From an uncultured bacterium (GTDB lineage Bacteria; Cyanobacteriota; Vampirovibrionia; Gastranaerophilales; Gastranaerophilaceae), in assembly GCA_902797985.1 (NCBI GenBank), contig CADBUZ010000005.1, positions 62,001 to 126,000 on the forward strand: a stretch of 64,000 bases of DNA, given 5' to 3'. How positions within the stretch are numbered: the stretch's first letter is position 1; every line of letters starts with the position of its first letter. The notes under the pieces were generated by a model. It ran no database searches. It saw only the letters and a list, made by a program, of their open reading frames with translations, and was not told the DNA's origin. Of the stretch, positions 6,733-8,252 are shown one piece after another. A program made the position numbers and the translations under genes.

Positions 6733-6775
6733 CCTTTTGTGTAATGCAGTTTAAATGAAAAGGAGATTTACCCCA

Positions 6776-7642
6776 ATGAAAAGAGATGAAAATTTTCAAA
6801 AAATGCTTAAATTTGTCTTGGCACGCGAAGGTGGTTATGTAAATAATCCAAATGATAAAGGTGGCGAAACAAATAAAGGTATTACTCATTCAACGTATGA
6901 TGCATATCGAAAATCACAAGGCTTGCCTGTTCAAAGTGTAAAAAATATTACGGATAAAGAAGTTGCAGATATTTATTATAGCAATTATTATAAGGCTTCA
7001 GGTGCAGACAAAATTGATGATCCACAAATGGGGATGTATGTGTTTGATACTGCAATCAATATGGGTGTGTCAACCGCTAAAGATATTCTTAACAAAAGTG
7101 GAGGAGATGTTGATAAATATGAACAACTTCGCAGAGAAAAATATCAAAAATATGTTGATTACGACAAATCACAGGAAATATTCCTAAAAGGTTGGAATAA
7201 TAGAGTTGACCAGTTAAAAGATTATGCAAGTAAAACATTTCCTAATAAAAAATTTGACATAAGTGTGGAAATGAACGTAGATAGGAATGGTAATCCCGTA
7301 GATTATTATGATTTTGAAGATTTAAAGAATATGGACAAAGAAACTTTTAGACAAAACTTTCCACAAATTTTAAAACAAATAATAAACAAACTATTAAATC
7401 CTTCGGTAAGTACATCAAAAAAGTCATCCAATTCTCAAAGAGGTTGTGTTGGTTCGTATTCTGTGTCAGGCTACACTCGTGCAGACGGGACAGAAGTCAA
7501 AGGTTATACTCGTACGTGCGGGGCAAAACATGCAGGCATGAGTGAACAAGAACGACTTGCAGGACAGGCAAAATATAAAGGTAAAAAGTTTCAGGATATT
7601 CCGCAAGATGAACTTGAACAAGCAATATCTTTCTTTATATAA
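6776..7642 (+). CDS. GH108 muramidase/endolysin-like protein
   Basis: 288 residues from the chosen ATG at 6776. An in-frame ATG at 6755 is possible, but AAAAGGAG (6758-6765) then falls inside the gene, whereas it sits about 10 nt before 6776. The N-terminal domain contains EGGYVNNPNDKGGETNKGIT, the GH108 signature with the catalytic Glu in EGG. The middle has the helical peptidoglycan_binding_3-like segment. The C-terminus has a tandem SGYTRADGT / KGYTRTCGAKH motif that I do not assign. GH108 proteins are mostly phage or secretion-associated muramidases. No signal peptide is present, as in phage endolysins. The gene lies next to repeated tRNA-His 3' ends, suggesting a remnant of an integrated element. 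Confidence 0.85.
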   Translation: MKRDENFQKMLKFVLAREGGYVNNPNDKGGETNKGITHSTYDAYRKSQGLPVQSVKNITDKEVADIYYSNYYKASGADKIDDPQMGMYVFDTAINMGVSTAKDILNKSGGDVDKYEQLRREKYQKYVDYDKSQEIFLKGWNNRVDQLKDYASKTFPNKKFDISVEMNVDRNGNPVDYYDFEDLKNMDKETFRQNFPQILKQIINKLLNPSVSTSKKSSNSQRGCVGSYSVSGYTRADGTEVKGYTRTCGAKHAGMSEQERLAGQAKYKGKKFQDIPQDELEQAISFFI

Positions 7643-7674
7643 ATTTTTGATTTAAAGTTTTTATTCCAATAGAT

Positions 7675-7700
7675 AAGAGTCGCTTTATTTAGCGACTCTT
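7675..7700 (+). terminator. Terminator of the GH108 gene
   Basis: A perfect 10-bp stem AAGAGTCGCT/AGCGACTCTT with loop TTATTT, 32 bp after the GH108 stop. The following sequence is AT-rich but not a clean T-run. Confidence 0.6.
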
Positions 7701-7730
7701 ATTATAATTCATTATAATATATTATAATGG

Positions 7731-7746
7731 GGCGGGTAGTGAGATT
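7731..7746 (-). repeat. tRNA-His 3'-end copy 1 (degenerate)
   Basis: GGCGGGTAGTGAGATT differs at one base from the 3' end of the tRNA-His gene at 8179-8252 (read on the minus strand). It lies downstream of a hairpin, as do the other two copies. It is the leftmost of three same-orientation copies and may mark an old attachment site. Confidence 0.65.
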
Positions 7747-7896
7747 GTTTTCAACAACTGCGCCCTCGCGTTAAACGGCACCGTTTCAAAATTAAAATCA
7801 AAAGCGTGGTTTTGATTTATAATTTTTCAACTCTCCTTACAGGGCTTGTCCGAACTTAAACAAAGCTTCGCTTTGTGGTTCTCATCCCAACAAAAT
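7747..7896. other. Non-coding spacer between tRNA-end copies 1 and 2
   Basis: No plausible gene is seen. The stretch contains short imperfect palindromes such as CAAAGCTTCGCTTTG. Its base composition is less AT-rich than the surrounding intergenic DNA. Confidence 0.5.
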
Positions 7897-7930
7897 AAAA
7901 AGGGCAATGACTTATGTCATTGTCCTTTTT
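7897..7930. terminator. Bidirectional terminator-like hairpin beside tRNA-end copy 2
   Basis: AAAAAGG(G)CAATGAC, loop TTAT, GTCATTGTCCTTTTT gives a stem flanked by A-run and T-run, functional on either strand. It directly abuts the tRNA 3'-end copy at 7926-7949, exactly as the real tRNA terminator abuts the tRNA. Confidence 0.65.
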
Positions 7931-7949
7931 ATGGGCGGGTAGTGGGATT
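7926..7949 (-). repeat. tRNA-His 3'-end copy 2 (exact)
   Basis: 24 bases here are identical to 8171-8194, covering the last 16 nt of tRNA-His, its 3' flank and part of the terminator T-run. Identity stops inside the T-arm. This is the size and place expected for an attL/attR-type core at a tRNA 3' end. Confidence 0.75.
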
Positions 7950-8141
7950 GTATCGGATTATTCGGGTACGCATAGCCTTTCACTTCGCTATTAAATCCTG
8001 ACGGATTTAGTCGCTTCGTCAGGCTATTTGCTCTTACGGGCTTGCTCGCTATTGCTCGACATCGCCCTACCGAAAATCCTCTCGAACCCATATAAGACTT
8101 CGTCTTATTGGGTTCTTTGAATTTCCAAACTTTTCACAAAT
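7950..8141. other. Non-coding spacer between tRNA-end copy 2 and tRNA-His
   Basis: About 190 bp without a credible gene. It includes palindromes (CCTGACG...CGTCAGG; AGACTTCGTCTT) and GGGTTCGAGAGG on the minus strand, which looks like a T-arm but lacks the rest of a tRNA. It may be residue of an excised or decayed element. Confidence 0.5.
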
Positions 8142-8175
8142 AAAAATACCGATAACAAAAGTTATCGGTATTTTT
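8142..8175 (-). terminator. Terminator of tRNA-His
   Basis: Perfect 15-bp inverted repeat AAAAATACCGATAAC/GTTATCGGTATTTTT with a 4-nt loop, immediately 3' of the tRNA on the minus strand. The A/T tails make it bidirectional. Confidence 0.8.
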
Positions 8176-8178
8176 ATG

Positions 8179-8252
8179 GGCGGGTAGTGGGATTCGAACC
8201 CACGCATAACGGAACCACAATCCGTGGTCTTAACCACTTGACGATACCCGCC
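8179..8252 (-). tRNA. tRNA-His(GTG)
   Basis: Read on the minus strand, the acceptor stem GGCGGGT pairs with ACCCGCC, the anticodon loop is TTGTGGT with anticodon GTG, and the T-arm is GTGGG-TTCGAAT-CCCAC. The extra G at -1 opposite C73, characteristic of tRNA-His, is encoded. CCA is not encoded. The 3' end is duplicated at 7926-7949 and, less exactly, at 7731-7746. Confidence 0.97.

Follow-up and report, generated by a model that had tools for sequence, protein, structure and literature searches.

The closest described counterparts of the repeats reported here are the tRNA-linked repeats (TLRs; RtT, RF00391) of Escherichia coli, in which one to several units lie behind a tRNA gene, each ending in that gene's 3′ end. 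E. coli K-12 carries 22 TLRs at ten loci, with one to five units per locus, and the last 18–19 bp of a TLR repeat the 3′ end of the upstream gene (PMC8144298). They have been known since 1978, and most have no accepted function: 19 of the 22 are without a known one, proposals having been made for three that are rRNA-linked (PMC8144298). These rRNA-linked TLRs are transcribed and processed, and bind Hfq and CsrA (PMC8144298). Two further kinds of element resemble the units described below in part: integrative elements and genomic islands in tRNA genes, in their sub-location within the tRNA and the direct repeat of its 3′ end; and the REP/BIME repeats with their RAYT transposases, in being small, non-coding, palindromic and modular.

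Candidatus Gastranaerophilales are non-photosynthetic gut relatives of Cyanobacteria. We analysed a 64,000-nucleotide stretch of DNA (the window) from an uncultured member of the family Gastranaerophilaceae, together with the genome to which it belongs (1.86 Mb in 55 contigs, 97.7% complete; 38 tRNA genes read with their flanks). The tRNA-His gene in the window is followed by an array of the TLR type, so that what was an enterobacterial curiosity seems to be matched in another phylum. A literature search that covered few subscription papers found no earlier account of repeats of this kind in the lineage.

A two-unit array behind tRNA-His

The tail of tRNA-His, taken as its final 15–17 nt, is present three times, in the gene itself, in an exact copy within a repeated 24-bp core and in a third copy with one change, and a terminator-like hairpin follows each of the three on the minus strand (Table 1). 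Both the triplication and the hairpins had been reported in a preliminary description of this DNA and are confirmed here. The copies delimit two units, here and at the other loci examined built in the same order from the tRNA outward: terminator palindrome, anti-tail, small hairpin, GGGTTCGAG, structured body, junction and tail copy. The anti-tail matches, imperfectly, the reverse complement of the tail and T-arm of its host tRNA, and GAG stands in for the TCG of the T-loop complement (...GGGAT GAG AACCC). The DNA between the tail copies is non-coding, structured and 190–230 bp long, and the bodies of the two His units are unrelated to each other (51% identity). The distal terminator is probably the original terminator of tRNA-His; a homologous sequence closes the array of a congener, G005.

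Table 1 Parts of the tRNA-His array, in window positions; fold z scores are relative to shuffled sequence
Feature	Coordinates	Strand	Basis
Host gene tRNA-His (GTG)	8178..8251	-	ARAGORN; Rfam tRNA, 61.7 bits
24-bp core TTTTTATGGGCGGGTAGTGGGATT, at the gene	8171..8194		Exact repeat
24-bp core TTTTTATGGGCGGGTAGTGGGATT, at tail copy 1	7926..7949		Exact repeat
Unit 1, 245 bp: terminator, degenerate anti-tail, hairpin, type D body, tail copy	7933..8177	-	Direct repeats; fold z -8.2; found in congener G005
Unit 1 terminator palindrome, directly 3′ of tRNA-His	8140..8177	-	Inverted repeat, 17/17 bp
tRNA-His tail copy 1, exact, AATCCCACTACCCGCCC	7933..7949	-	
Unit 2, 203 bp: terminator, anti-tail, GAG, hairpin, type B body, tail copy	7730..7932	-	Direct repeats; fold z -4.4; missing from congener G005
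Unit 2 terminator palindrome	7895..7932	-	Inverted repeat, 94%
Unit 2 anti-tail TTGTTGGGAT	7884..7893	-	8/10 positions pair with tail
GAG after unit 2 anti-tail	7881..7883	-	
Unit 2 type B body core	7758..7839	-	BLAST against own genome and tRNAs at matched loci
tRNA-His tail copy 2, one change, AATCTCACTACCCGCCC	7730..7746	-	
Distal terminator of the His array	7673..7702	-	Inverted repeat, 12/12 bp; G005 comparison

The preliminary description had ascribed the triplication to repeated integration and had read the adjoining GH108 endolysin and LprI-like lipoprotein genes as fitting a decayed or very small element. The tRNA 3′ end has indeed received additional material more than once, and the number of units varies among relatives; it is the decay of a phage or island that does not hold, the inserts being non-coding and common to other tRNA loci. 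Remnants of phage or island integration would account for a tail that is the usual attB segment of tRNA-using integrases, for the direct repeats that flank the inserts and for the GH108 gene nearby, but they are already contradicted by non-coding inserts of 203–245 bp at many tRNAs, each with its own tail, and we regard this origin as very improbable. Integrative elements and islands differ from the new units in the same respects, as these are only about 200 bp long, non-coding, without an integrase and spread over many tRNA targets and tails. An integrase acting on att sites common to all copies was not found, the units being non-coding and the tail different at each tRNA; because each locus carries the tail of its own tRNA, no single integrase att site explains the arrays. 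Pfam confirms the identities of the GH108 and LprI genes, but both lie outside the array and the gene beyond the array differs in G005, so that neither is tied to it. They look like bystanders, and relatives of the GH108 gene are located elsewhere in other genomes.

The GH108 protein (window 6755–7642) ends in a module common to differing proteins of congeners: its last 80 residues recur in otherwise different proteins of several of them at 58–85% identity.

Own-tail copies across tRNA genes

The His locus is one among many comparable loci in the genome. For a census we took the tail as 15 nt (positions 59 to 73) and counted matches with at most two mismatches within 1 kb downstream. Copies of a gene's own tail lie downstream of 12 of the 38 tRNA genes in the window's genome, a lower bound because the assembly is fragmented and several contigs end inside repeats. 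By the same 15-nt criterion, none of the 38 has a copy upstream and none has one on the reverse strand, and cross-pairings with the tails of other tRNAs gave 4 matches in 1,322, which places the own-tail excess far above chance. In G004, which is another species of the genus, own-tail copies are present at 13 of 38 tRNA genes, in a partly different set and again with none upstream or on the reverse strand. The count is 3 of 43 in G033, from another family in the order, where two of the three are adjacent Pro genes, and 0 of 43 in G013, from the window's own family. Occupied loci hold one to three units directly 3′ of the gene, and in L096 the tail copy extends to 19 nt including CCA.

Bodies common to different tRNAs

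The bodies are of a few kinds that recur behind different tRNA genes, and the element at a locus often closes with the tail of its own host. The junction before the tail copy mostly ends in ACA, often as CAAGACA, and the tail copy starts with ATCC or GTCC. A BLAST search with the region found dispersed copies of the inter-tail DNA in its own genome, many of the clear ones just 3′ of tRNAs (Arg-ACG, Ser-GGA, Gln-TTG, Gly-TCC, Val-TAC, Ala-TGC and Leu-GAG), and the type B body core of unit 2 is likewise scattered over the genome, mainly 3′ of other tRNA genes. Among type A bodies, which follow the Val, Tyr, Ile, Leu-TAG and Met tRNAs, mean identity is 84%, against 59% for the tails of the same pairs. 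In both congeners, a stretch resembling the unit of another tRNA lies within 500 nt downstream of 24 of the 38 tRNA genes, whereas the upstream control gave 6 and 5 of 38. The full tail always stays joined to the gene, which thereby remains whole.

We think it probable, on balance, that these TLR-type arrays are made of non-autonomous elements that insert or duplicate behind the T-loop of tRNA genes and copy the tail as they do so. We infer that units are mobile: the point of insertion or duplication would be the junction of T-loop and 3′ end (position 58/59), and the event itself would copy the target tail. Units may also multiply in tandem and swap bodies from one locus to another.

The main rival is a local process without a dedicated mobile element, in which tail and terminator are copied in inverted or tandem form (template switching at the terminator palindrome is one example) and homologous recombination through common T-arm and hairpin sequences moves the bodies between loci. 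Such duplication would readily yield arms that are both host sequence. Arrays may be mixed or uniform, and in the tandem Arg-TCT and Pro arrays the units are near-identical (98% and 97%, respectively), as plain duplication would give, which is a counterpoint to insertion. Duplication also fits the last units that are truncated at Gly-CCC, Ser-GGA, Met and Lys-CTT and the terminators that are duplicated together with the tail at several loci, a length that exceeds the 15–19 nt of a simple target duplication. It does less well with bodies that are alike over 100–170 bp at tRNAs with different arms, and with a layout and a GAG replacement that recur at many loci and in many species, beyond what independent accidents would produce. 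We hold local duplication to be possible but unlikely.

Three loci depart from the usual arrangement. One (L011, own genome C25:32783-32851) has a type B body with no tRNA in the locus and the hairpin AAATAAAACCACTTTGGGAAAAGTGGC on both sides, as if the duplicated target were a hairpin other than a tRNA. Another (L010, own genome C6:3375-3441) holds two tandem units with a Leu-like tail, GTCCCATCTTCGACA, and no tRNA gene in its 3 kb, and is perhaps an array that has outlived its tRNA. At the His locus of G005 (L051), the unit 1 body contains an extra hairpin of 40-odd bp, CACTCTGCCGAACAAAACGATTAAGTATCGTTTTGTGAGAGGGGC, that is missing from the window; hairpins like this one recur at other loci, so that smaller hairpins seem to be taken up inside unit loops.

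Host-matched arms and predicted fold

We measured the match between arm and host in 41 units picked by a motif independent of the closing helix. Pairing of a unit's own tail with the ten bases that precede GAG averages 6.51 pairs; permuted tails give 5.58 ± 0.15, and none of 5,000 permutations reached the observed value. A covariation score that counts tail/anti-tail pairs over 40 units was 0.345, compared with 0.206 after shuffling and at most 0.212 for slid registers; the 40-sequence alignment was adopted over a 28-sequence one that omitted poorly paired units. With the whole T-arm and a looser alignment, a unit's own arm ranked top in 12 of 39 units, with a mean fractional rank of 0.17.

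As a single strand, the unit is predicted to fold into a three-way junction, a model whose details were derived for type A bodies. RNAalifold, given seven type A units, placed the tail/anti-tail helix as the closing stem unprompted, and its consensus contains 19 pairs with two-sided changes, some of them in helices that are not derived from tRNA. Both His units also score well against shuffled sequence (z of -8.2 for unit 1 and -4.4 for unit 2), in part because each includes a terminator. The closing helix varies with the host tRNA, but its covariation alone is no proof of selection at the RNA level, because inverted duplication of the host tail gives the same result. Covariation in the inner hairpin argues that pairing is maintained, in RNA or in single-stranded DNA.

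Occupancy among relatives

Among relatives the His locus occurs both empty and occupied, and occupied His loci of other species bear that species' own His tail. In G005, unit 1 and a tail copy follow tRNA-His, next comes a distal terminator that is a homologue of the one in the window, and unit 2 is cleanly absent. At orthologous tRNAs of G000 and G004, some with short flanks, tail copies are found in G004 only at Asp, Gly-GCC, Gly-TCC, Lys-TTT and one Met, and in G000 only at Val, Ile and Leu-TAG. These comparisons are between species rather than strains, so that gain and loss are not separable in them. A strict core pattern (ATGAGAACCC, gap, GGGTTCGAG) matched 12 of 386 Cyanobacteriota genomes. 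All 12 belong to the family of the window, and the reversed pattern had 0 matches in the same genomes. At 9 of the 16 sites the pattern sits 3′ of a tRNA gene that has a downstream copy of its own tail.

The units could instead be functional small-RNA genes, processed from tRNA read-through and kept by selection, with the tail serving 3′ processing and the fold serving function. A strong covarying fold agrees with this, as do the rRNA-linked E. coli TLRs that are processed and bind proteins (PMC8144298). A conserved RNA gene would hardly show so patchy a spread, down to none and three of 43 tRNA genes in two relatives, or a difference in occupancy between orthologous tRNAs of congeners, and most E. 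coli TLRs lack a known function (19 of 22; PMC8144298). We consider small-RNA genes an improbable explanation.

The strict unit core pattern also has matches in three viral contigs in IMG/VR (L301, L302 and L303). L302, which was taken from a contig of 277 kb, contains 18 tRNA genes, but on the opposite strand.

Comparison with E. coli TLRs

Read directly, the E. coli tyrT/tyrV units have the part order, the anti-tail and the GAG for TCG of the new units, together with a hairpin of the AACC..GGTT type and a closing helix with 10/10 pairs, and the lysV unit comes after a terminator-like hairpin, a further likeness. In other E. coli TLRs, such as argQ, the layout of anti-tail, GAG and hairpin is weak or absent. 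The new units differ in belonging to another phylum, in having a terminator palindrome in most units, in occupying about one-third of tRNA genes of many kinds, and in bodies of several kinds that have no sequence match to RtT. The Rfam RtT model is passed at its gathering threshold by the E. coli tyr units (133–138 bits) and lysV (47 bits). With an E-value limit of 0.01 it lists no unit of the present set, and with a limit of 1 nothing in the window; at the loci of this genome only tRNA rose above the Rfam cut-off. The E. coli units share layout and motif with the new ones, the bodies are not alignable with the RtT model, and we accordingly call the new arrays TLR-type, a name meant to imply neither common nor separate descent.

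Read-through past the tRNA terminator would give a pre-tRNA that bears the folded unit. The tail copy might then assist in its processing, by analogy with what has been proposed for the rRNA-linked E. coli repeats. A bolder reading is that TLRs are cross-phylum, tRNA-targeting selfish elements that rebuild direct and inverted copies of the host tail, the E. coli TLRs being a small, old remnant; we find this doubtful at present. Were it true, a closing helix matched anew to each host tRNA would be a mode of insertion not described before. The match between anti-tail and host offers a specific lead on mechanism, and a lineage in which about one-third of tRNA genes are occupied and units differ between congeners makes the origin and movement of TLRs testable.

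Candidate enzymes and related elements

We considered several known activities as the source of the units and could link no enzyme to them. A RAYT/Y1 transposase was rejected as the mobiliser: other hairpins adjoin the RAYT genes, and presence among relatives does not track unit load. Unit-like matches, mostly short, lie near 4 of 17 RAYT loci. The flanking hairpins seen are of other sequence, and the transposases of this genome appear to act on repeats of a different kind. The new units are further set apart from REP/BIME elements by their position at tRNA 3′ ends and their host-matched arms. A resident reverse transcriptase is unlikely as the unit enzyme because none is found in this genome (no RVT_1 at 97.7% completeness), and among relatives its presence, too, does not track unit load. 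A hammerhead-like junction, raised by a GAUGAG motif, was dismissed since the CUGA and GAAA core is absent, as were decayed tandem tRNA genes, the bodies being unlike the 5′ part of tRNAs.

The genome has three small Y1-type (RAYT-like) transposase genes (L304, L305 and L306, on C20, C43 and C14), one of which has two stop codons. Their flanking hairpins, such as GTAGGTCGGCTTTACTAAGCCGAC, look like GTAG-tagged REP elements.
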